64,000 nt of DNA from positions 62,001 to 126,000 of the forward strand of contig JAGXAN010000009.1 of assembly GCA_019075865.1 (NCBI GenBank), written 5' to 3'. Positions within the stretch are counted from its first letter, which is position 1. Each line of letters starts with the position of its first letter. Below the pieces are notes generated by a model. It made no database searches. It saw only the letters and a list, made by a program, of their open reading frames with translations, and had not been told where the DNA came from. The DNA is from Hyphomicrobiales bacterium (GTDB taxonomy: Bacteria > Pseudomonadota > Alphaproteobacteria > Rhizobiales > Beijerinckiaceae). Positions 1 to 64,000 of the stretch are shown one piece after another. The translations under genes were made by a program, and so were the position numbers.

Positions 1-841
1 GCACGCGGTGCTCGCGCCCCATTTGCAACAGCGCCAACAGGTCTTTTGGAAAACACGACCCACCAAATCCCGGCCCGGCATTGAGAAATTTGGGGCCGAT
101 ACGGCGATCAAGGCCGATGCCGCGCGCCACCTCCTGCACATTCGCACCGACGGATTCGCAAAGATCGGCCATCTCATTGATGAAGCCGATCTTGGTCGCC
201 AGAAAGGCATTGGCCGCATATTTGATCAATTCCGCCGTGCGGCGCGTCGTGAACAGCAATGGGGCCTGATTGAGATAAAGCGGCCGATAGACGGCTTCCA
301 TGATTTCGCGCGCCCGCGCATCCTGCGTGCCGATGACGATGCGATCCGGCAGCTTGAAATCGCGTATCGCCGCGCCCTCGCGCAAAAACTCAGGGTTGGA
401 AACCACCTCAAATTCCGCCTCCGGCCGCAACCCGCGAATGATCGCCTCAACCTGGTCACCCGTGCCAACCGGCACGGTGGATTTGGTGACGATCACCGTG
501 GGGCCGCGCAGCGCCGCTGCCACCTCGCGCGCCGCCGCAAAGACGTAACTGAGATCAGCGTGGCCATCGCCGCGCCGGGACGGTGTGCCCACAGCGATGA
601 ACACCACATCGGCGGCTTGCACGGCGGCAACCAGATCCAGACTGAAAGATAGCCGCTGCGCCGCGACATTACCTTGCACCAGAGCTTCAAGCCCCGGTTC
701 ATAAATGGGCATCTGCAAAGCCTGCAAGGCCCTAATGCGGGCGCCATCATGATCAACGCAAATAACACTGTGACCAAAATCGGCGAGACAGGCGCCGGAA
801 ACGAGGCCGACATATCCCGCGCCAACAATTGCAATTTGCAT
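1..841 (-). CDS. ugd: UDP-glucose 6-dehydrogenase, C-terminus cut off by window edge
   Basis: Oxidises UDP-glucose to UDP-glucuronate, a precursor of acidic surface polysaccharides, using two NAD+ in the cytoplasm. About 280 codons are present. The N-terminus MQIAIVGAGYVG is a Rossmann NAD-binding loop. The motif GFGGSCFPKD carries the catalytic cysteine at about residue 263, close to the window edge; the C-terminal UDP-binding part lies outside. The start is the ATG at 839-841 on the minus strand. The reading frame was obtained by translating the minus strand directly. Its neighbour is parB, 186 bp upstream and in the same direction. In many relatives other genes follow parB, so a sugar-nucleotide gene here may be the edge of a polysaccharide locus; that is inference. 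Confidence 0.93.
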   Translation of the reverse strand, partial: MQIAIVGAGYVGLVSGACLADFGHSVICVDHDGARIRALQALQMPIYEPGLEALVQGNVAAQRLSFSLDLVAAVQAADVVFIAVGTPSRRGDGHADLSYVFAAAREVAAALRGPTVIVTKSTVPVGTGDQVEAIIRGLRPEAEFEVVSNPEFLREGAAIRDFKLPDRIVIGTQDARAREIMEAVYRPLYLNQAPLLFTTRRTAELIKYAANAFLATKIGFINEMADLCESVGANVQEVARGIGLDRRIGPKFLNAGPGFGGSCFPKDLLALLQMGREHRV

Positions 842-1027: not shown

Positions 1028-1918
1028 TCACGACTTCAGGCGATTGCACAAGGCATCGAGTTGCTCAAGGTTCTTGTAGCGGATCTTCACTTCGCCGCGT
1101 TCACCCCGATGATCAATGATCACAGTCAGACCCAAAATGCCGGACAGCACCGTCTCAAGATCACGTGTATCCGCATCCTTGCCGGGCTTGACCGCAGATT
1201 TTACCTCTATCGCGCCCTGATTCTCAGCCTGACTGGCTTCCAGCTGCGCAATCCGCTCGACATCCCGGACGGTCAAGCCTTGTTCGACGATTCGTTTCGC
1301 AACCGAATCTGAATCCCGTACGGAGAGCAGCGCCCGCGCATGACCGGCGGAAAGGCTACCATCGGCGACATAGCCGAGCGCCAGCGGCGATAATTTCAGC
1401 AAGCGCATCGTATTGGCAATATGGCTGCGGCTTTTTCCGATAACCTTGGCCAAATCCATCTGCGTATAGCCAAATTCCTCGCCAAGCTGGGCATAGCCCT
1501 GCGCTTCTTCCAGCGGATTGAGATCCGCCCGTTGGACGTTTTCAACGATGGCAATTTCGAGCGATTCCTTATCGCCCACTTCCAGCACCACAATCGGCAC
1601 GTCATGCAAGCCGGCCATTTGTGCGGCGCGCCAACGGCGCTCACCCGCAACAATTTCATAGGCATCGGCAAGGCGCGGAATACTACGCACGAGAATCGGT
1701 TGGATAATCCCCTTGTTGCGGATCGATTCGGCCAAATCCGACAGATCGCTCTCGGCAAAGGCCTTGCGCGGGTTGCGTGGGTTGGGGCGCACAAATTCAA
1801 CCGGCACACGCCGCGCGCCGCGCGCATTTTCCACCGCCACCGGCTCTGCCGCCGTATCCCCGATCAACGCAGCCAGCCCACGACCCAAACGCGGACGAAT
1901 TTCTTCAGCCATACTCAT
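1028..1918 (-). CDS. parB: chromosome-partitioning protein ParB
   Basis: CTP-dependent DNA clamp that loads at parS sites, spreads, and is pulled by ParA to segregate the origin. It has 296 residues. The nucleotide-binding ParB/Srx motif GERRWRAA is at residues 92-99 and the second box ENVQRADLNPLE at about 126-137; a helix-turn-helix follows, and a C-terminal dimerisation segment ends in NRLKS. The start may be ATG 1918 or ATG 1912; the second has better spacing from the upstream GAGAG. It lies 16 bp downstream of parA in the same operon. Candidate parS sites are at 3078 and 8821, which supports a chromosomal rather than plasmid role. Confidence 0.97.
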   Translation of the reverse strand: MSMAEEIRPRLGRGLAALIGDTAAEPVAVENARGARRVPVEFVRPNPRNPRKAFAESDLSDLAESIRNKGIIQPILVRSIPRLADAYEIVAGERRWRAAQMAGLHDVPIVVLEVGDKESLEIAIVENVQRADLNPLEEAQGYAQLGEEFGYTQMDLAKVIGKSRSHIANTMRLLKLSPLALGYVADGSLSAGHARALLSVRDSDSVAKRIVEQGLTVRDVERIAQLEASQAENQGAIEVKSAVKPGKDADTRDLETVLSGILGLTVIIDHRGERGEVKIRYKNLEQLDALCNRLKS

Positions 1919-12282: not shown

Positions 12283-13116
12283 TTGAGTCGCAACTACTTC
12301 CATCTGCATCTGGTCTCCGACTCAACCGGCGAAACCCTGATAGCCATCTCGCGCGCCGTTGCCGCCCAATATCAGGGTGTGTCCTCGATTGAGCATATCT
12401 ATCCCCTGATTCGCACCGAAGCGCAGATTGAGCGGGTCATTTCCGAAATTGAAGCCGCGCCCGGCATCATCCTGTTCACCATGGTCAACAATGAATTGGC
12501 GGATCGCCTGCAAACCGCCTGTCATGACCTGGGCAGCCCGTGCCTTTCGGTATTGCAGCCGATCTTGGGTCTTTTCCAGTCTTATCTGGGCACAGCATCG
12601 ACGCCACGGCCCGGCGCGCAGCATTTGCTGAATACCGAATATTTCCGCCGGATCGACGCGCTGAACTTCACCATGCTGCATGATGATGGCCAGCAATATG
12701 AAAATCTCGACAATGCCGATATTTTGTTGTTGGGCGTGAGCCGCACCTCCAAAACCCCAACCAGTATTTACCTCGCCAACCGTGGCTACAAAACAGCCAA
12801 CGTGCCGCTGGTGCCGGGGGTTGACCTGCCGTCTGGTCTCAATGGTCTGAAAAACCCGTTGATTGTTGGTCTTATCGCTTCGCCAGAGCGCATCATCCAG
12901 ATTCGGCAGAACCGGCTCCTGACCCTGAATGCGGATCAGGAAACGCCCTATGTGGATCGCGTCGCCGTCGCTGAGGAAATAGCCCATTCGCGGCGGCTGT
13001 TCGCAGAAAACGGCTGGCCGATGATTGACGTCACCCGCCGTTCGATTGAAGAAACCGCCGCTGCGATCATTGATCTTTACAGCACCCATCGTTTGAAATT
13101 CATGGCTCAATCTTGA
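12283..13116 (+). CDS. ppsR: pyruvate, phosphate dikinase regulatory protein (DUF299)
   Basis: Bifunctional kinase/pyrophosphorylase that switches pyruvate phosphate dikinase or PEP synthase off and on. It has 277 residues. The family opening [13 protein letters not shown] and the P-loop-like [20 protein letters not shown] are present. The start is TTG 12283 with AAGGA 8 nt upstream; no ATG fits. It is the conserved right-hand neighbour of the alphaproteobacterial origin (the RP001 gene of Rickettsia). It overlaps maf by 4 bp. Confidence 0.94.
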
Positions 13117-53726: not shown

Positions 53727-54704
53727 ATGGGGTTGACGGTGATTGCGGATAGGAAAGTCGCGGTTCTGTTGATGAAAACGCAAAAGCCAGATAGCAAGAT
53801 GACCAGCCTGATGTCGAAGGCCTTTGGCCGGTTTCGCAGCAGCGCGCCTTTGGCACCGGCCGCCGCCGGCCCAACCGTAGCCCATGATGCCGCCTTCCTC
53901 GTTTCCCGTGATCTCATGCCGCGTGACCTTGCCGCTGAAATAGCCGAAAATGCCCAAGCCGAGCCGCTCAGTGTGGATGATGACGGCATATTGGGCGCCT
54001 ATAATTTAGGCAAGACCTATGGCCAGCGTCAGGTGGTCAAGGATGTCAGCCTTACCGTGCGCCAAGGTGAGGCGGTCGGCCTGCTCGGGCCTAATGGTGC
54101 GGGCAAGACAACAGTTTTTTACATGATCAGCGGACTGGTGAAGCCCGACAAGGGCTTGATCACGCTGGATGGCAACAACGTTACACCCTTGCCCATGTAT
54201 CGGCGGGCGCGTCTTGGCATTGGCTATCTGCCGCAGGAGGCTTCGATTTTTCGCGGTCTCAGCGTCGAGGACAATATCCGCGCCGTGTTGGAAGTTGCGG
54301 TGGCCGACCGTGATCGGCGCGAGCATCTGCTGGAATCCCTTCTTGAGGAATTTGACATCAAGCGCCTGCGCAAATCGCCGTCGATCGCCCTGTCTGGCGG
54401 CGAACGTCGGCGCTGCGAAATTGCCAGAGCGCTGGCGGGCCAGCCTTCGTTCATGTTGCTCGACGAACCTTTCGCCGGCATTGATCCGATTGCGGTGGGT
54501 GACATTCAGGCATTGGTTCGGCAATTGACCACACGCGGCATCGGCGTCCTGATCACCGATCACAATGTGCGTGAGACTTTGGGTTTGATCGACCGGGCCT
54601 ATATCATCCATTCTGGCCATGTTCTCACCGAGGGGACAGCCGAAAGCGTTATCGCCGACAAGGATGTCCGCCGCTACTATCTGGGCGACGATTTCCGCAT
54701 GTAA
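53727..54704 (+). CDS. lptB: LPS export ABC transporter ATPase
   Basis: Energises LPS transport from the inner membrane with LptF and LptG. It has 325 residues; the ABC domain starts at about residue 90 (LGKTYGQRQVV), so an unusual N-terminal extension of about 85 residues remains (several in-frame ATGs at 53772, 53799). Walker A GPNGAGKTT, signature LSGGERRRCEIARAL, Walker B FMLLDEPFAGID are intact. lptC/lptA are not upstream as they commonly are; pheT is. Confidence 0.93.
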   Translation: MGLTVIADRKVAVLLMKTQKPDSKMTSLMSKAFGRFRSSAPLAPAAAGPTVAHDAAFLVSRDLMPRDLAAEIAENAQAEPLSVDDDGILGAYNLGKTYGQRQVVKDVSLTVRQGEAVGLLGPNGAGKTTVFYMISGLVKPDKGLITLDGNNVTPLPMYRRARLGIGYLPQEASIFRGLSVEDNIRAVLEVAVADRDRREHLLESLLEEFDIKRLRKSPSIALSGGERRRCEIARALAGQPSFMLLDEPFAGIDPIAVGDIQALVRQLTTRGIGVLITDHNVRETLGLIDRAYIIHSGHVLTEGTAESVIADKDVRRYYLGDDFRM

Positions 54705-54843
54705 CCCCGACCATCAACCTCAACCTCGCAATCTTAACCTTGGCGCGGGACGGTTTGATTTCTGTCTGGCGTCACGGCCAAAGATCGGCTAAGCAAGAAA
54801 CGGGCCGTTCTTGATGCGGCACTTTGTTGCGTGGGTTTGTTCA

Positions 54844-56445
54844 ATGTCGCTTTCTCCCCGGCTTGTCATGCGACAGGGGCAGTCGTTGGTTATGACGCCG
54901 CAGCTTTTGCAGGCGATCAAGCTGCTGCAATTTTCCAGCGCGGAATTGTCGACATTCATCGACAGCGAATTGGAGCGAAATCCGCTTCTGGAGCGGATGG
55001 ATATGCAGGAAGCGCCGTTTGTGGCCGAGCCTGCGGCCGCAAGCGACCAGATTCGCGATGGCGATTGGGCTTCCGATACCATCGAGATGGACCCCTCGCG
55101 CCTTGCCCAAAACCTTGGCACCGGTGCCGACAATGCCTTTGAGGCCGATGCGTCCACGCCCGCGATGGGTGCCGATGCGCAGGCGGTTTCCGACCACGGC
55201 TATATTTCCGCGCAATCATGGAGCGGCACCAGCCACGCGGGCGGGGCCGAAACGCCGGATCTTGAGGCCTATGTCGCCGCCCCGGTTTCCCTGCGCGACC
55301 ATTTGAATGCCCAGCTTTGCATCAGTCTTGCCCATCCGACCGATTTGCTGATCGGGCAGATGCTGGTCGATGCCGTCGATGACGCTGGCTATATTTATGA
55401 GCCGCTGGAGGAGATAGCCACGCGGCTCGGCGTGCCTCTGGCGCGGGTCGATCGCATTTTGCATCTCATTCAGTCCCTTGACCCGGTCGGGGTAGGGGCC
55501 CGCAACCTGGCTGAATGCCTGTCACTGCAATTGGCCGAGAAAAATCATCTCGATCCCGCCATGCAGGTTTTGATTGCCAATCTGCCCCTGCTGGCCAAGC
55601 GCGATTTTGCGGCTTTGCGCAAGTTATGTGGCGTGGATGAGGAAGACCTTAAGGACATGATCGCCGAAGTGCGCCACCTCGATCCAAAGCCAGGGCGAGC
55701 CTTTGTATCCACGCCCGTGCAACCGGTTGTGCCGGACGTTTATGTCAGCGCCGCCAGCGACGGGACATGGCATGTCGAATTAAACTCCAACGCCTTGCCG
55801 AGGTTGCTGGTCAATCAGTCTTACGCGGCGCGGGTGGCGCGCAAAGGCGGCAATGAGACCGACAAGGCCTTTGTGACCAATTGTCTGCAAACCGCCAATT
55901 GGCTTACCAAAAGCCTCGAACAGCGCGCCAAGACGATTTTGAAGGTGTCGAGTGAGATTGTCCGCCAGCAGGATGCGTTTTTCGCGCAGGGCGTCGAGTA
56001 TTTGCGGCCCCTGAACCTCAAGACGGTTGCCGCCGCCATTGCCATGCACGAATCGACCGTATCCCGCGTGACGGCCAATAAATATATGGCAACGCCGCGT
56101 GGCATGTTTGAGCTGAAATATTTCTTTTCGGCTGCCATTGACGCCCATGGCCAGGGCGAAGCGCATTCGGCGGAAGCTGTGCGCTACAAAGTGCGCCAGA
56201 TGATTCAGGGCGAGAGCGCCGACAATGTGCTCTCCGATGATGCGATTGTCTCGCTGTTGCAGGAAGCGGGAATCGGCATCGCCCGGCGCACGGTCGCCAA
56301 ATACCGCGAGAGCCTGCACATTCCTTCGTCGGCCGAGCGCCGACGTGAGAAGCGCGCGATGGAAACTTCCCAGCGCACCGGCCCCGCGATATATTCGGGC
56401 AATGGTTCCGGCCCCGCCACCCGCGCCACGTTGCGGGACGCCTGA
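54844..56445 (+). CDS. rpoN: RNA polymerase sigma-54 factor
   Basis: Alternative sigma for -24/-12 promoters, dependent on activator ATPases. It has 533 residues from ATG 54844. Region I is glutamine- and leucine-rich (LVMTPQLLQAIKLLQFS), the core-binding domain is central, and the C-terminal RpoN box ARRTVAKYRE is intact. A helix-turn-helix precedes the box (HESTVSRVTANKYMATPRG). lptB-rpoN order is normal; hpf and ptsN do not follow. Confidence 0.96.
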   Translation: MSLSPRLVMRQGQSLVMTPQLLQAIKLLQFSSAELSTFIDSELERNPLLERMDMQEAPFVAEPAAASDQIRDGDWASDTIEMDPSRLAQNLGTGADNAFEADASTPAMGADAQAVSDHGYISAQSWSGTSHAGGAETPDLEAYVAAPVSLRDHLNAQLCISLAHPTDLLIGQMLVDAVDDAGYIYEPLEEIATRLGVPLARVDRILHLIQSLDPVGVGARNLAECLSLQLAEKNHLDPAMQVLIANLPLLAKRDFAALRKLCGVDEEDLKDMIAEVRHLDPKPGRAFVSTPVQPVVPDVYVSAASDGTWHVELNSNALPRLLVNQSYAARVARKGGNETDKAFVTNCLQTANWLTKSLEQRAKTILKVSSEIVRQQDAFFAQGVEYLRPLNLKTVAAAIAMHESTVSRVTANKYMATPRGMFELKYFFSAAIDAHGQGEAHSAEAVRYKVRQMIQGESADNVLSDDAIVSLLQEAGIGIARRTVAKYRESLHIPSSAERRREKRAMETSQRTGPAIYSGNGSGPATRATLRDA

Positions 56446-56490
56446 AAATGTCGCTTCGCCAGTCCCGGTGCTCGGGGTAAGGATTTGAAA

Positions 56491-58365
56491 ATGCCCAATG
56501 TCTCGCGCCGCCAGTTGCTTCAGTCCGGTGCCGGTCTGCTGGGGGGAGCGGCCATGGCCCGCTCGTCGCTCGCCTGGGGCGCAATGCCCCCCGGTTGGAC
56601 GCAGACCTATGGACTCTCCACCTTCGGCGAACTGGCCGAGCCCGAGGATTTCAAGGCCTTCGCCTATGTCAATCCGGACGCGCCCAAAGGTGGCACGCTG
56701 GCCATCCAGATCACTTCGACGCAAGGCAATCAGGCCTTCGACACCTTTGATACGCTCAACATATACGTACTCAAGGGCAATGGTGCCGCCGGCATGGACG
56801 CCACCTATGATTCGCTGATGACCGGCTCCGCCGACGAGCCCACCTCCGCCTATGGCCTGATCGCCCGCGCGGTTCAGATTTCTGCCGACAAGCTCACCTA
56901 TCGGTTTTTGTTGCGCCCCGAAGCGCGCTTTCACGATGACAGCAAGCTCACGGCCGAGGATGTGGCTTTCTCCCTGAACATCCTGAAAACCAAAGGCCAT
57001 CCCGCCTATCGCATCATGCTCGACAAAATGGTCTCTGCCGAGGCGGACCCTGACGGCGCCGTGGTCGTGAAACTGGCCAAAGAGCGCAGCCGGGATTTGC
57101 ATCTGGTGGTATCCGGAATGCCAGTCTTTTCGAAGGATTATTGGCAGGGCCGCGACTTCGAGGCCGCAACCCAGGAGCCGCCGCTTGGCTCCGGCCCTTA
57201 CCGGTTTTTGCGGATGAACCCCGGCACCAGCATTGAATTTGCACGAGTCGCCGATTATTGGGCGAAGGATTTGCCAGTCAATCGCGGGCAAAACAATTTC
57301 GATGTCATTCGCTATGAATATTATCGCGAGCAGGTTGCCGGGTTTGAGGCTTTCAAGGCAGGCAAGTTGAATTACCACGAAGAATTCAGCTCCAAGGTCT
57401 GGAACACCGGCTATGATTTCCCGGCGCTGGTTCAGGGGCGCGTCAAGAGGGAAAGGGTGCATTCCGGCCGCCCGATTCCGACGCAAGGCTGGTACTTCAA
57501 CACGCGTCGCGCCAAATTTGCCGATCCGCGCGTGCGTGAAGCCATTGGAATGCTGTTCGATTTTGAATGGACCAACAAGAACATCATGTTTTCCGCCTAC
57601 AAGCGCCTCGTCTCCCTGTTTCAAAATCAGCCGATGATGGCCACCGGTAAACCCGGCCCGCAGGAATTGGCGCTGCTGGAGCCGTTTCGCGACAAACTTT
57701 CACCGCTGGTGTTCGAGGACGCCTATTTACCGCCAGTTTCGGACGGATCCGGCTCGGATCGCAACTGGCTGCGCCAGGCCAATGACATGTTGCTGGCCGC
57801 CGGGTGCAAGCGTCGGGGCGCGGCTTTGCTGGACCCGCAGGGACAGCCCTTTACCATCGAGTTTCTGGAATCTTCGGATGCACTGCAACCCCATACCCAG
57901 CCCTTTGAGGCCAACCTTCGCCGTCTGGGCATAGCCGCCATCAGCCGCATCGTCGATTCGTCGCAATATCAGATGCGCGTCAACAAATTCGACTTTGATG
58001 TCATCACCGTAGCCGTGGGTAGCACGACAACGCCCGGCGATGAATTGCGCAATTCGCTGGGTTCCAAAACCGCCGACACGCCGGGCTCGCGCAATTATTC
58101 TGGCATCAAGGATGTCGTAATCGACGCTTTGGTGGATCGCATCAGCCATGCCGCCAGCCGCGATGAGTTGAATGTGGCGGCGCGTGCGCTCGACCGGGTC
58201 TATCGGGTTGGGCATTTTTGGGTGCCGATGTGGTACCGCGACAATGCGCTACTGGCGTTTTGGGATGAGTTTGACCGCCCACAGCGCCAGCCGACCTATG
58301 ACACCGGTGCTCCCGGAACCTGGTGGCATGATTCGGAAAAAGCCCAAAAAGCTGGCATCCCCTAA
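56491..58365 (+). CDS. oligopeptide ABC transporter substrate-binding protein (YejA-like)
   Basis: 624 residues from ATG 56491; TTG 56485 lies too close to its upstream AAGG. It has a twin-arginine-like signal (SRRQLLQSGAG) and an SBP_bac_5 (family 5) fold. GPYRFLRMNPGTSIEFARV and NTRRAKFADPRVREAIGMLFDFEW (in part) are typical of the YejA group, which brings oligopeptides or microcins. No permease or ATPase genes are beside it. Confidence 0.9.
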   Translation: MPNVSRRQLLQSGAGLLGGAAMARSSLAWGAMPPGWTQTYGLSTFGELAEPEDFKAFAYVNPDAPKGGTLAIQITSTQGNQAFDTFDTLNIYVLKGNGAAGMDATYDSLMTGSADEPTSAYGLIARAVQISADKLTYRFLLRPEARFHDDSKLTAEDVAFSLNILKTKGHPAYRIMLDKMVSAEADPDGAVVVKLAKERSRDLHLVVSGMPVFSKDYWQGRDFEAATQEPPLGSGPYRFLRMNPGTSIEFARVADYWAKDLPVNRGQNNFDVIRYEYYREQVAGFEAFKAGKLNYHEEFSSKVWNTGYDFPALVQGRVKRERVHSGRPIPTQGWYFNTRRAKFADPRVREAIGMLFDFEWTNKNIMFSAYKRLVSLFQNQPMMATGKPGPQELALLEPFRDKLSPLVFEDAYLPPVSDGSGSDRNWLRQANDMLLAAGCKRRGAALLDPQGQPFTIEFLESSDALQPHTQPFEANLRRLGIAAISRIVDSSQYQMRVNKFDFDVITVAVGSTTTPGDELRNSLGSKTADTPGSRNYSGIKDVVIDALVDRISHAASRDELNVAARALDRVYRVGHFWVPMWYRDNALLAFWDEFDRPQRQPTYDTGAPGTWWHDSEKAQKAGIP

Positions 58366-58535
58366 GCTTCTCCAGCCGATATGGGTGGCAGCGGCACGCC
58401 TTGGCATGTCGATTGCCCATCATGTCGCCATGAACTCGGCCCGCCCATGATCCATTGGTGGCATTAACTACTGAAACCAGTGCGATTTTTCAGTAAATTC
58501 ATGAATTTTCAATTCTCGTTGTGCACATTGCGGGC
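58366..58535. other. gap before the DUF4011 helicase gene
   Basis: 170 bp without a gene. The AT-rich part (58470-58515) before the start may hold its promoter. There is no clear hairpin or ribosome binding site. Confidence 0.4.
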
Positions 58536-61500
58536 ATGACTCAAAAACTGCCCCGTTCGCCCCAGCCGCAATCCGACAGCATTGAAATGTTCGCGCAAGT
58601 TGCCGGGCGTTTGAGTTTGGCGTTTCAGCAATACAATATTGCGCCGATCTCGCAGATCGAACTGGTCAATGGTTCAGATGAAGACATCAACGACATTACC
58701 ATTACGATAACCTCCAAGCCATTGTTTTTGCACAAAAAGACATTTCGCTTCGAGCAAATCAAAAAAGGCGAGAGCCGGGTATTGAGCCCTGTGCCGGTTG
58801 ATCTGGATGCTTCGTTCCTGAGTGCGGTCACGGGCGAAGTCGCTGGCAAGATCAATATTGTGGCGCGTGCAGGCAAGGGTGAAATCGCGGCTTGTGAAAT
58901 ATTCTGTCACCTTGTGCCGCCGATGGATTGGCCGGGGCTGACAGGCGGGCCGGAGTTGATCGCCGGCTTTGTGCGGCCCAATGACCCCGCCGTGGCTGGC
59001 ATTTTGCGCAATGCTTCGGAAAAATTGCAGCAGTCCGGACGCTCGCCGGTGCTGGATGGTTATCAATCCCACAACAAGGGCCGCACTTGGGAATTGGCGG
59101 AAGCGATCTTTGCGGCCCTCGGTGATGAGAATCTGGTGCTGTCTTTGCCCCGTCCCGATTTCGTGCGCGATGGGCAACCGGTGCGCCCGCCCAGCGAATT
59201 GCTGGCACAAAAGACCGCTGACAGCCTGGAACTGGTGCTGTTTCTGGCGGCCTGCCTGGAGCAGGCCGGGCTCGATCCATTGGTTGGGTTCAACGACGGC
59301 CATGTCTTTTGCGGCCTTTGGCTGTCGCCGGGGGACCCGTCCTTCCGGCTGGTTGCCACGGCGCAGAGCCTGCGCCCGCGCATCACCAATCATGATCTCA
59401 TCCTGATTGAGACAACCATGATCACGGCCGTGCCAAAAGTGCGTTTTCGCACCGCCGCCGCCAAGGCCGCCATCATGATTGCGGAAAGCGTCGAGGCGCC
59501 GCTGGATGTCGTCGTCAATATTCGCGAGGCGCGCTATCGCGACATCACCCCGCAAGATGGCACCCTGCCGGCCCCCAGCGAGGCAGCGCGTGCGGTGAAG
59601 GAGAAGATTGTCAAGGAAAAGGCCGCCCCTGCCCCGGAGAGCAAGATTGCCGAGAAAAACAGCCGCCTTGACAAGTGGCGGCGGCAATTGGTCGATCCTG
59701 TTGCCAATAATCCGCTGCTTAATTTCAAGATGGACAAGCGCGCCGTTTCGTTGATCTGTGAAGATCCCCAGCGTCTGGAAATGGAATTGGCGCGCGGTGA
59801 AAAATTCCGCCTGTTGCCCAAGCCCAGGCTCGCGCCGGTTGCCGCCGAAGCGGACATTGATTATGCGGCGCTGGAGGCTGATGATGCCGCCGCGCGCCAG
59901 CACGCGGTGGATGCGCTGCAACGGGGCGAAATCCACGCCCATCTCAGTGACGAAGCTTTGCAGGAGCGGCTGCCGGAAATCTATGCGCAATCGCGCGAGG
60001 CCTTTGACCAAGGGCAGGGCAACAGCCTGCATCTGGCAATCGGCTTTGTGTCCTGGCGTGCGCAACCCAAGGCAGCGGCACAAAAAGCGCCACTGATCCT
60101 GATGCCCATCGATCTGGAGCGCCGCTCGGTTCGATCCGGTTTCCGGTTGGTTCGCTATGGCGAAGACGCGCGCATCAACCCGGCGCTGCTGCATATGTTG
60201 CGCCGCGATTTTGGCCTTGAGCTGGAAGATTTTGAGGACGAGTTTGTCAGCAATGCCGAAGGTTTGAACATTGCAGGCATATATGCGGCCATGCGCAAAG
60301 ATCTGGCTGGCCTCAAGCAGGCCAAGCTCACCGAAGAAATTGTGCTCGCAAATGTGTCGTGCAGCCGGTTCCTGATCTGGCGCGACGCGGTTGAGCGCAG
60401 CAAGAGCGTGCGCACCAACGCGGTCGTCGCCCATTTGCTGGAAAAGAACGATCAGGATTATTCCAACGGCACGCCATTGCCTGACCCGCGCAAACTCGAT
60501 GCCGAGATTGAGCCCAGCAATTTGTGGATTCCATTGGCGGCTGATGCCGCCCAGACAGCGGCCGTGGTGGCCGCCGCTTATGGACGTGATTTTATCGTCA
60601 ACGGCCCGCCCGGAACCGGCGTGAGCCAGACCATTGCCAACATGATCGTCCAGCTTTTGGGCGACGGCAAATCGGTAATGTTCGTGTCGCGCAAGGCCAG
60701 CGCGCTGGCTTCGGTGCACCAGCGGCTCGGTGCGATCGGCATTGGCGCCTTCTGCTTGCGGATCGATGGCCATCATGGTCAGAAAGATTCCGTGCTGGCC
60801 CAAATGAAAGCTGCATGGGAAACCCGCGCGACGGAAGTGCCCAAAGATTGGTACGTCGCCACCTCCGACATCAAGCGCTTGCGTGAAAAATTGAACGGCG
60901 TCGCTTCCGTGTTGCACCGGCCGCATCGCAATGGCATGAGCGTGAATGATGCTGTCAGCCTTGTCATGCGGCAGAAATCGGTGCTGCCGGGGCTGGAACT
61001 CGCATTTGAAGCGGGCACGGCGCACGATGGCGACGATATGCGCCGGTTGCGTGGCCGCTGCCGCGAAATGCAGACGGCACTGGAGAGCATCGGCTCACCC
61101 GATGACAGTTGTTTCAACCAGATCGGCCGCCAGCAATGGTCGCCGCTTTGGCAAAAGGCCCTGCTGGACGCCATTGTCGATTTTGACGAGAGCGCGCAGG
61201 TGCTGGAAAATACCGGTGCGCAAGCCGCCGCCCTTTTCGATGCGCCCGCCAGTTCCCACCCCAAGCGCATTGCCCGTCTGTTGACGCTGTTCGGCCAGGC
61301 GATCATGCCAAAGGCGCGCCTCGCGGCACCGCTGCTGCGCGAGGATCATGCGCGCATTCACGACGCTTATTTCAAGTGGTCGGGCCTGCGCACACAATAT
61401 TCGATGGCCAGTGCCACGCTCGCCCGCAAATACCGCGATGGCGTGTTTGAGCTCAATTTGGTGCAGTTGATGGATGATTGGCGTAAAGCCAGCGGCAAAT

Positions 61501-64000
61501 TGCTGCTTTCAGCCAAGCACAAGCGCCGTATTTGTGACGTGCTGTCGAGCTTTACCGATACGCCGGTCACCGATGATGCCGGCACAGAGATTGCGCGGCT
61601 CATTGATCTGAAAGCCTTGCGCCAGCAGGCCAGCAGCTATGACGCGATTTTGTCCAGCATTTGCACCGGTTGGTCCGGTTTCAATTCCAGCAGCGACGAG
61701 ATCGAAAGTCTGCTGGCTTGGGAAACCGCGACCCGTACCCATGCCAAAAACCTCGCGGATGCCGATTATCCGGTGAGTTACTGGCTGGATCGTGTGTTGT
61801 ACGCCCTCAATGCCAGCGCTGGCGAAGCGGATTCGACCGGGTTGCTTCGCAACGCCGTCTCGTGCCTTTACCACGATTACAGGGCTTTCACGCAAGCCCA
61901 TAAAGCCTTGGTCGAATTGGCCGAAACCCGCGACGAGTGGTTGGGTCTGGCGCAGGATGAAAACTGGTTGCTGGGCGCACGTCAAATGGTGGCCGATTGG
62001 CATCACGCCAGCGATGATCTTCAACGCTGGTGCCAGTGGCGCGCAGTGGCGGAGGCAGCAAGCGCCGCCGGGCTTTCGCCTTTGGTCGGCGCGTTGCAAA
62101 ACGGCCGCATCTGCGCCGATGAAGTGACCAATATGTTCGAACTCGCCTATGCGCGCGGCTGGGTCATGCAAATTGTTGACCGCGAACCCCTGCTGCGCAG
62201 CTTTGTCGCCGAGCAGCATGAGGACGCCATCATGCGGTATCAAAGGCTGGATGATCGCGTCGCGGAATTGGCGCGGCAGGTGGTGGCGGGGCGTTTGTCG
62301 GGCGAAATTCCATCACGGGCCAGCGCCGCCAAAGTGCCCGAATTTGCGTTGCTGGCCAGCGAGATCGAAAAACAGTCCGGCCAAATGCCACTGCGCGAAT
62401 TGTTTGCGCAAATTCCCAACGCCTTGGCCCGGCTTGCACCATGTCTCATGACCAGCCCTGAAGCCATCGCCCGCCTGTTGCCGCGCGAGGGGCGCAGCTT
62501 TGATGTGGTGATCTTTGACGAGGCCTCGCAACTGACCATGGGCGAATCGCTTGGGGCATTGTCGCGGGCTTCGCAGGTGATCGTGCTGGGCGATGATCAG
62601 CAATTGCCGCCGGTCTGCGCAGCTCAGCAAGACGCCGACCATCAGCCGGATGAAAACGACGAAGGCGTCACCAGTCTTTTGCAGGAATGCCTTGCCGGGC
62701 ATTTGCCGGTTATCAACCTGCGCAACCATTACCGCAGCGCGAATGAGCGTGTTTTTGCCTTCGCCAATCGGCATTTCTACAACCATGAATTGGCGACTTT
62801 TCCGCCTAATTCCCGCCAACAGAGCGGTTTGCAATGGCTGGAAGCGACGCGGGGACAGGAGAGCGCCGGGGTCAACCGCGCCGAAGCGGAAGCTTTGGTG
62901 GCCCATCTCATCGGGCTGTTGAGCGACCCTGATTTTGTCAGCCTCGGCCAATCGATCGGTGTGGTTACTTTCACGCCAGCGCAAAAGATGTTGATCGAGC
63001 GCCTTCTGGAAAAGGAACGCCACGCATTTCCGGGGCTGGAAGCCTTTTTTGGTGACGATGTCTGCGAGCCGGTGTTCGTCAAGGACGTGCAGAATGCACA
63101 AGGTGAGGTGCGTGACATCATCTTCCTGTCCACGGTGTTTGCCCGGGATGCGAGCGGCGATGCGCCCGGCGATCTCGGTTGCCTGAGCGGGGTTTATGGC
63201 AGCCAGTACCTGAACGTCGCCGTCTCGCGCGCGCGTCGGCAAATGATTGTCGTCAGCTCGCTGAAACCGGCGGATCTCAAGGACATGGAAGCACCGGCCG
63301 CCGCCTTGCTCGCAGCCTTCTTGCAAGAAGCGCAAGCCCAACCGGTCGATGCCTATCTTGCCAACCAACTCGAGCTGGCTGATTCGGATCGTGCCTTTGA
63401 AGATATCGTACAAAAGGCACTCGAAGCAAAGGGCTGGCTGGTGCATCCGCGCCTTGGTGATTCGCATCAGCGCGTCTCGCTCGCCATCGTTCATCCCGAT
63501 CAGCCGGGCGAATATCTGGCTGGCATTGATTGCGACAGCGTGCGTTTTGCGGCGACCAGCAATGCCCGGCAGCGCGACCATTTACGGGCGCTGACCATGC
63601 GCGAACGTGGCTGGAACCTGCACCGGGTGTGGGCTCCCGACTGGTGGATCAACGCCGATCGCGCCCTCGCTCGACTGCATGGCCAGCTTGAACATGATCT
63701 GGCCGAATCGCGTCTGCCACCCGAAGAGCGCAAGAAGGCCCATGTGGAGCCACGCCCGCATGCAGAAGCCATGAAACTGGTGATGGATGAAGAGCCCGTG
63801 GCAATCTCGCCAATGCCCGCTTCGGCCATGGTTGATGCGGCGCGCGGCGAGGAAAGCCGCGTCTTGGCAGAGGTCAAGTCTGCCGCCCCGGTGGCTGCGG
63901 AGCAGACCCGTTATCAGGTGGCCGATTTTGCCGAAATTGGCATTGTCATCAACCGCGCCGCCTTTTACGAACCGGGCTACCTGCCTGTGCTGCGTGCGAT
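58536..64000 (+). CDS. large DUF4011-type superfamily 1 helicase with degenerate Walker A, C-terminus outside window
   Basis: At least 1,821 codons, open to the window end; frame checked by translation at many points. Start is ATG 58536. Order: an N-terminal module (about 1-370), DUF4011 with LDKWRRQLVDP and NPLLNF (about 378), helicase core, an MTES_1575-like nuclease domain (about 1,625-1,730), then the start of a DUF3320-like tail. Helicase motifs kept: IFDEASQ (D1328), GDDQQLPPV, NHYRSANE, LNVAVSRARRQ. Walker A reads GPPGTGVSQT: valine 696 replaces the lysine. Nuclease positions also deviate (S1648, IDCD at about 1,664-1,667). Function unknown; family members occur in defence or DNA repair contexts. 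It may be a non-hydrolysing pseudo-helicase. Confidence 0.85.
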   Translation, partial: MTQKLPRSPQPQSDSIEMFAQVAGRLSLAFQQYNIAPISQIELVNGSDEDINDITITITSKPLFLHKKTFRFEQIKKGESRVLSPVPVDLDASFLSAVTGEVAGKINIVARAGKGEIAACEIFCHLVPPMDWPGLTGGPELIAGFVRPNDPAVAGILRNASEKLQQSGRSPVLDGYQSHNKGRTWELAEAIFAALGDENLVLSLPRPDFVRDGQPVRPPSELLAQKTADSLELVLFLAACLEQAGLDPLVGFNDGHVFCGLWLSPGDPSFRLVATAQSLRPRITNHDLILIETTMITAVPKVRFRTAAAKAAIMIAESVEAPLDVVVNIREARYRDITPQDGTLPAPSEAARAVKEKIVKEKAAPAPESKIAEKNSRLDKWRRQLVDPVANNPLLNFKMDKRAVSLICEDPQRLEMELARGEKFRLLPKPRLAPVAAEADIDYAALEADDAAARQHAVDALQRGEIHAHLSDEALQERLPEIYAQSREAFDQGQGNSLHLAIGFVSWRAQPKAAAQKAPLILMPIDLERRSVRSGFRLVRYGEDARINPALLHMLRRDFGLELEDFEDEFVSNAEGLNIAGIYAAMRKDLAGLKQAKLTEEIVLANVSCSRFLIWRDAVERSKSVRTNAVVAHLLEKNDQDYSNGTPLPDPRKLDAEIEPSNLWIPLAADAAQTAAVVAAAYGRDFIVNGPPGTGVSQTIANMIVQLLGDGKSVMFVSRKASALASVHQRLGAIGIGAFCLRIDGHHGQKDSVLAQMKAAWETRATEVPKDWYVATSDIKRLREKLNGVASVLHRPHRNGMSVNDAVSLVMRQKSVLPGLELAFEAGTAHDGDDMRRLRGRCREMQTALESIGSPDDSCFNQIGRQQWSPLWQKALLDAIVDFDESAQVLENTGAQAAALFDAPASSHPKRIARLLTLFGQAIMPKARLAAPLLREDHARIHDAYFKWSGLRTQYSMASATLARKYRDGVFELNLVQLMDDWRKASGKLLLSAKHKRRICDVLSSFTDTPVTDDAGTEIARLIDLKALRQQASSYDAILSSICTGWSGFNSSSDEIESLLAWETATRTHAKNLADADYPVSYWLDRVLYALNASAGEADSTGLLRNAVSCLYHDYRAFTQAHKALVELAETRDEWLGLAQDENWLLGARQMVADWHHASDDLQRWCQWRAVAEAASAAGLSPLVGALQNGRICADEVTNMFELAYARGWVMQIVDREPLLRSFVAEQHEDAIMRYQRLDDRVAELARQVVAGRLSGEIPSRASAAKVPEFALLASEIEKQSGQMPLRELFAQIPNALARLAPCLMTSPEAIARLLPREGRSFDVVIFDEASQLTMGESLGALSRASQVIVLGDDQQLPPVCAAQQDADHQPDENDEGVTSLLQECLAGHLPVINLRNHYRSANERVFAFANRHFYNHELATFPPNSRQQSGLQWLEATRGQESAGVNRAEAEALVAHLIGLLSDPDFVSLGQSIGVVTFTPAQKMLIERLLEKERHAFPGLEAFFGDDVCEPVFVKDVQNAQGEVRDIIFLSTVFARDASGDAPGDLGCLSGVYGSQYLNVAVSRARRQMIVVSSLKPADLKDMEAPAAALLAAFLQEAQAQPVDAYLANQLELADSDRAFEDIVQKALEAKGWLVHPRLGDSHQRVSLAIVHPDQPGEYLAGIDCDSVRFAATSNARQRDHLRALTMRERGWNLHRVWAPDWWINADRALARLHGQLEHDLAESRLPPEERKKAHVEPRPHAEAMKLVMDEEPVAISPMPASAMVDAARGEESRVLAEVKSAAPVAAEQTRYQVADFAEIGIVINRAAFYEPGYLPVLRA

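Follow-up and report, generated by a model that had tools for sequence, protein, structure and literature searches.

Near the end of the window, by which we mean the whole 64,000-nucleotide stretch of DNA that was analysed, we found a gene for a large protein in which a key residue is lost from each of three enzyme parts; the full length of the protein is kept, and probably also its shape. The lineage to which it belongs is derived from the ProA anti-phage family, is fast-evolving and has so far been found in one genus only. These results suggest either the conversion of a weapon into a protein without enzymatic activity or its slow loss. Judging from sequence, we give a probability of about 58% to the reading that the protein represents a disarmed ProA lineage, maintained without catalysis to bind nucleic acids as a sensor, scaffold or regulator. 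The observations in support are the substitutions, the retention of the predicted fold, the presence of the gene in all the genomes of the genus examined and the purifying selection seen in the sister lineage. The family itself is known, but to our knowledge no lineage has been described in which all three active sites are altered.

The features of the gene are given in Table 1. The full gene (L003:2522-8422, contig C13 of the genome to which the window belongs) extends 421 bases beyond the window and encodes 1,966 amino acids; it is the single DUF4011 match in that genome. Its base composition by codon position resembled that of five neighbouring genes. The sequence-only reading had concluded from the open frame that the gene is kept and not decaying. 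The frame was confirmed over all 1,966 codons, whereas decay of the window copy is still to be weighed as a rival. Rfam and tRNA scans of the window gave no match.

Table 1 Features of the ProA-like gene in the window. Residues are numbered from the GTG at 58521, which makes the P-loop valine V701; numbered from the ATG at 58536, the same residue is V696.
Feature	Position in window	Residues	Strand	Basis or remark
ProA-like gene	58521..64000, truncated by window end		+	complete gene has 1,966 codons, stop L003:8422
Alternative ATG start	58536		+	in-frame GTG upstream at 58521
Ig-like beta domain	58557..58922	13-134	+	predicted model and VIA-align, Z ~10-11
Transglutaminase-like domain	58923..59555	~135-345	+	weak Pfam matches in relatives, PMC3710099; boundary inferred
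C235S, presumed nucleophile lost	59223..59225	235	+	codon AGC; His261, Glu297 retained
DUF4011	59688..60200	390-560	+	Pfam PF13195, 121.2 bits
P-loop GPPGTGVS	60603..60626	695-702	+	sequence read
K701V (V696 from ATG)	60621..60623	701	+	codon GTG; comparison with relatives
Motif II DEASQ, intact	62517..62531		+	sequence read
Second RecA-like helicase domain, AAA_12	62670..63260	1384-1580	+	Pfam PF13087, 58.3 bits; Upf1-like fold
E1530V, motif V (QGxExD)	63108..63110	1530	+	comparison with relatives
Vsr-like nuclease domain MTES_1575	63396..63686	1626-1722	+	Pfam PF18741, 79.1 bits (cut-off 38.2)
D1653S in nuclease	63477..63479	1653	+	codon TCG; comparison with relatives
E1670D in nuclease	63528..63530	1670	+	comparison with relatives
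H1677A in nuclease	63549..63551	1677	+	comparison with relatives
DUF3320 start, cut by window end	63960..64000	1814-1862	+	Pfam PF11784, 62.2 bits

The model of the N-terminal 345 residues shows an Ig-like domain and, after it, a second, mixed domain (mean pLDDT 88). The VIA-align matches of the Ig-like part were beta domains of transglutaminases and also of unrelated proteins. In the helicase part, Pfam recognised the C-terminal portion of AAA_11 in addition to AAA_12, that is, fragments of two SF1 domains. The model of the core (residues 640-1740) had a mean pLDDT of 87, and Foldseek matched it best to Aquarius (E 2.5e-11), Upf1 (1.4e-10) and Dna2 (4.7e-10), with Senataxin also matched. The TM-scores of these matches were low (0.2-0.3 of the model, at most 0.38 of the target), because the alignment spans just part of the model. 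Pfam and Foldseek together place two RecA-like domains with an Upf1-like fold in the window protein. The confidence of the models may be flattered, because the alignments used for folding were dominated by canonical relatives.

The frame reads NGPPGTGVSQT at the P-loop, and the replacement of the Walker A lysine by valine, as originally read from the GTG codon at 60621-60623, proved to be real. Conversion of AAA or AAG to GTG takes at least two base changes, so that a single-base error is unlikely. Lysine occupied this position in all 100 of the other distinct relatives, as well as in the three rows of the sister lineage described below. Valine was thus not common among orthologues; among the rows read, it occurred solely in the window protein. 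Valine as a feature of the family or of the branch was rejected, since the sister lineage has the lysine together with an altered first P-loop glycine. Lysine in all orthologues, combined with lysine at this codon in the raw reads, had been named in advance as an outcome that would count against the substitution; all relatives read do carry lysine, and a sequencing error is nevertheless unlikely because independent losses occur elsewhere in the protein. A second, functional P-loop, which had been named as the other such outcome, was not present anywhere in the whole protein. Relatives with a P-loop lacking the lysine were also sought in viral contigs with one exact pattern, and none matched.

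The claim that the other helicase motifs are intact held in part. Motif II (DEASQ) and HYRS stood, whereas motifs V and III did not. Motif V (QGxExD) reads QGEVRD in the window protein, the glutamate being present in 99 of the 100 others, and motif III (GDPxQLPPT) reads GDDQQLPPV. The protein retains GPPGTG, Ser702, the Asp-Glu pair of motif II (D1333, E1334), the HYRS arginine of motif IV and R1570 of motif VI. Hence, by the marks of an SF1B (Upf1-like) helicase, the motif II Asp-Glu and the motif VI arginine are there and the Walker A lysine is gone. The SF1B helicases Upf1, Aquarius and Dna2 have a canonical P-loop.

The change was also not confined to the helicase, which the sequence-only reading had not anticipated: the loss of the lysine stands, but key residues are gone from all three enzymatic domains. 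In the transglutaminase-like domain, residue 235 was cysteine in 89 of 94 readable relatives and is serine in the window protein; with His261 and Glu297 retained, the Cys-His-acid triad is incomplete. In the N-terminal model, a helix begins at residue 235 and a strand at residue 261, and residue 297 comes after a strand, which we take to be the layout expected of a Cys-His-acid site. Weak Pfam transglutaminase matches were found among the 70 members of the alignment (DUF553 in 33, Transglut_core in 15), and none in the window protein. In the nuclease domain, the aspartate at 1653, present in all 100 other relatives, is serine here; the invariant residue is therefore missing. Glutamate at 1670 and histidine at 1677 were found in 76 and 74 of the 100 others, respectively, and are aspartate and alanine in the window protein. 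These two losses are less telling than that of Asp1653, because about a quarter of the relatives also lack the glutamate or the histidine. Both residues are often replaced in rows from Bacillota and Bacteroidota (L066, L068, L069, L072, L075, L077, L086, L092 and others). The glutamate is missing from 24 of the 100 relatives. On reading, most of the rows without these residues came from these two phyla; their helicase motifs and nuclease aspartate are retained, and they are perhaps another branch with an altered nuclease.

The 100 other relatives are the 104 distinct rows minus the window protein and the three sister rows; one of the searches kept the best 80 of at least 473 relatives. Three identical rows were left out, as were L034, L038 and L098 (no open frame longer than 1,550 amino acids), L069 (its longest frame is not the match) and L107 (on the same contig as L018); the five loci named all have the lysine and the aspartate. 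Eleven places matched in the family search and seven in the order search stand outside the counts. Loci L165-L175, read separately, showed the P-loop lysine in 11 of 11 cases and the nuclease aspartate in 10 of 10 readable cases; among them, L172, L174 and L175 duplicate counted loci.

The closest described family is the equivalog NF058533 of NCBIfam, anti-phage protein ProA, to which the window protein scored 1480.5 bits, just below the cut-off of 1500. The order of domains is the same (residues 33-1938 against profile positions 2-1898 of 1903), and the difference lies in the key residues, which are changed in all three enzymatic domains (C235S, K701V, E1530V and D1653S). The canonical proteins L007, L009 and L018 scored 1924-2101 bits, and the sister lineage 1207 and 1208 bits. 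The PADLOC candidate PDC-S37, for which the library gives no description, matched residues 380-1957 with 873.5 bits; the state of the active sites lies outside that model. Hhe, another DUF4011 anti-phage protein (NCBIfam NF042953, PADLOC Hhe), matched best over residues 1100-1725, the C-terminal part of the helicase and the nuclease, but its 489.7 bits fell far below the cut-off of 2000 bits. Sequence profiles of Upf1, Sen1, Smubp-2 and Dna2 matched the helicase, and the core fold resembled Upf1, Aquarius and Dna2 by Foldseek. We found no account of the ProA protein or of a disarmed member of the family among the papers listed, most subscription papers lying outside the search. PMC3710099 describes MTES_1575-type proteins as composed of a transglutaminase, an SF1 helicase, a Vsr-type nuclease and a winged-helix (DUF3320) domain, a set of parts that agrees with the window protein, in which the transglutaminase-like domain is putative. 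The paper also gives an MTES_1575-type protein a HEPN domain called active, whereas the window protein had no HEPN match at E 0.01.

The other three genomes of the genus (G001, G002 and G003) encode proteins that share 36-39% identity with the window protein in the stretches that match. Within this sister lineage, the G001 and G002 proteins are 88% identical, and the two pieces from G003 are 75% and 62% identical to that from G001. Their active sites are altered in another way. In the triad of the first domain, Cys is replaced by Ala, His by Met and Glu by Asp (two readable rows). All three rows have the P-loop TPPGTGKS, in which the first glycine is replaced (G695T) and the lysine is retained, as well as Q1361E in motif III, and in the nuclease Glu is replaced by Ile and His by Glu with the aspartate retained. 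Since the sister lineage has the P-loop lysine and the nuclease aspartate, it is only in the window copy that the sequence points to a dead motor. The G003 copy consists of two overlapping frames (L028:11436-17215) with a frame change near 12833-12944, which is either genuine or an assembly error; that assembly is 73% complete in about 510 contigs. G002 has a second, fully canonical ProA, L018 (G002:C10:20191-26085, 2089 bits), besides its altered copy L005.

The proposal that the protein belongs to a separate branch of the family was borne out, for it formed a clade with the sister lineage of the same genus with an SH-aLRT of 100 in three trees. With the root assumed to be outside, this clade was joined with a support of 99 by the nearest outgroup, genus g346 of another family of the order (L169-L171, three genomes, 41-43% identical to the window protein). 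All three active sites are intact in the three g346 loci. From the shared node, the branches were 0.33-0.39 for g346, 1.61 for the window protein and about 2.3 for the sister rows, an acceleration of four- to sevenfold over g346. A long-branch artefact was considered for the grouping of the window protein with the sister lineage, and leave-one-out trees were run. Without g346, the window protein alone went to the canonical clade of the family, and the sister lineage alone was unplaced (an open fork, with the root drawn on its own branch); with g346, the sister lineage alone adjoined g346 (98/96). The grouping is thus well supported, not beyond doubt, both branches being long.

The departures from the family were then counted at 199 near-invariant columns, defined in 78 canonical rows. 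The window protein departed at 54 of the 199 and the sister rows at 62-70 (62 of 183 readable columns for L008), compared with 1-18 of 200-217 columns for 18 control rows left out in 11 groups. The departures of the window protein occurred in all domains, for example at 14 of 36 columns in DUF4011 and 14 of 46 in RecA2, a spread that fits general relaxation as well as re-use. Comparison of the window protein with the sister row L006 gave 33 columns changed in both against 18.7 expected, with 7 identical departures, and 109 of the 199 columns retained in common.

A dN/dS comparison, suggested together with the original observation, indicated purifying selection in the sister lineage; the figure covers the sister pair, the window copy having no close relative in the collections searched (best identity 41-43%). 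By Nei-Gojobori counts, dN/dS between G001 and G002 was 0.110 overall, and by region 0.128 in the N-terminal domains, 0.032 in the P-loop region and 0.077 in the nuclease. Five canonical pairs gave 0.123-0.163 overall. Against the longer G003 frame, the overall values were 0.127 for G001 and 0.159 for G002, and some regions gave 0.068-0.159 between G001 and G003. Since the sister values are like those of the canonical pairs, the altered lineage is as constrained as the canonical ones.

From the residues lost, the window copy would lack a motor driven by ATP, chemistry of the protease or transferase type and the cutting of DNA, and would be retained as a non-catalytic binder. It may bind ATP without hydrolysing it, as the sequence-only reading proposed. 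The parts suited to binding are those that remain: both RecA-like folds, motifs II, IV and VI, and DUF3320. The helicase frame, which would bind nucleic acids, and the C-terminal DUF3320 region may accordingly be the parts through which the protein works, and not as an effector but as a sensor, scaffold or regulator. Because the cysteine and the nuclease glutamate and histidine are changed in both lineages and the motor changes differ, the effector sites were likely lost first and the motor later. The motor would then have been free to change, with the lysine lost in one lineage and the P-loop glycine and motif III glutamine altered in the other. The two lineages have different replacement residues, however, which makes parallel loss just as possible. 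A wider proposal, which we make tentatively and regard as rather doubtful, is that one genus converted an anti-phage machine into a protein without enzymatic activity that all its members keep for a new role, possibly in housekeeping or regulation. In this view the disarming was sequential and ended with the loss of the lysine. Pseudoenzymes are well known in signalling. If the disarmed-binder reading is true, an immune machine can find a new use after its chemistry is gone, every catalytic centre being altered in a lineage under purifying selection. The natural series of canonical g346, sister lineage and window protein would allow the three parts of ProA (protease-like, motor and nuclease) to be told apart in their roles. 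The case also cautions against inferring an active defence system from profile scores alone.

Other explanations were weighed against this one. Defence genes are often lost, and the window copy might be decaying: after loss of the defence role in the lineage, it would be drifting, its frame still unbroken. The changes at near-invariant columns across all domains, the window branch of 1.61 against 0.33-0.39 for g346 and the broken frame of the G003 copy all fit such decay. However, 1,966 codons remain open with a codon-position composition like that of five neighbours, the equally altered sister lineage is under strong purifying selection, and the gene is found in every genome of the genus examined. 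The sharing of kept and of changed columns between the window protein and L006 also argues against decay, shared ancestry explaining part of it. We regard decay as unlikely, yet as the main rival. An error of sequencing or assembly is practically negligible as an explanation and was rejected: the data come from one assembly, but the codon differs by two bases, many further independent odd residues lie in an unbroken frame of 5.9 kb, and the codon-position base composition is like that of the neighbours.

Enzymes are often regulated by relatives that have lost activity, and towards an active ProA the protein could be a dominant-negative partner, a decoy or a regulator, its dead sites binding the same targets. 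The coexistence of altered L005 and canonical L018 in G002 is consistent with this. However, the window genome has a single DUF4011 gene and neither G001 nor G003 shows a canonical copy (G003 being 73% complete), so that a live partner of the ProA family is not generally present; we consider this reading improbable. Still less credible is a working ATPase or helicase with an unusual P-loop, in which another residue has taken over the role of the lysine. The retention of GPPGTG, Ser702, the motif II Asp-Glu, HYRS and the motif VI arginine would suit such an enzyme, but the lysine is present in 100 of 100 relatives, the motif V glutamate is also lost and the chain has no other P-loop.

Regarding distribution, the gene was found in all four genomes examined from the genus (E 0.001) and in 39 of 397 from the family, the four of the genus included (E 1e-100). 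For the order the count was 17 of 297 (E 1e-150, with the sister protein as the query), and for the class 7 of 385 (E 1e-150). The last three tallies are lower bounds from even samples of larger groups, with at most two candidates scored per genome, and include whichever members of the genus were drawn.

In the window, the gene lies between genes for a solute-binding protein and a penicillin-binding protein, beside dnaN-recF-gyrB. The sister copies lie between acetyl-CoA synthetase-like and amidase-like genes (names from reading the proteins, without a profile call), and the ProA-like gene is absent from the amidase locus of the window genome. A common location as proof of vertical descent was rejected, as the two loci differ; the different places indicate that transfer or relocation happened. 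Identities between the window genome and G001 were 68% for the penicillin-binding protein, 64% for the solute-binding protein, 63% for RpoN, 74% for DnaN, 60% for RecF and 84% for GyrB, higher than that between the ProA-like proteins. The rpoN and solute-binding-protein genes (window 53727-58365) adjoin dnaN-recF-gyrB (L003:8481-15708) in the window genome; in G001 and G002 the two groups are on separate contigs with other neighbours. The rpoN and dnaN-recF-gyrB regions have thus been rearranged, with the ProA-like gene at the junction.

Distant relatives were also observed on mobile elements. Plasmid searches gave 312 records with matches (E up to 1e-50), 229 of them from Klebsiella and 196 of the 312 predicted to be conjugative. 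Furthermore, a relative with 26% identity over 96% of the query lies at MT836269.1:5508-11270 and takes up half of this 11.4-kb record, which is named Bacteriophage sp. and comes from human faecal samples.
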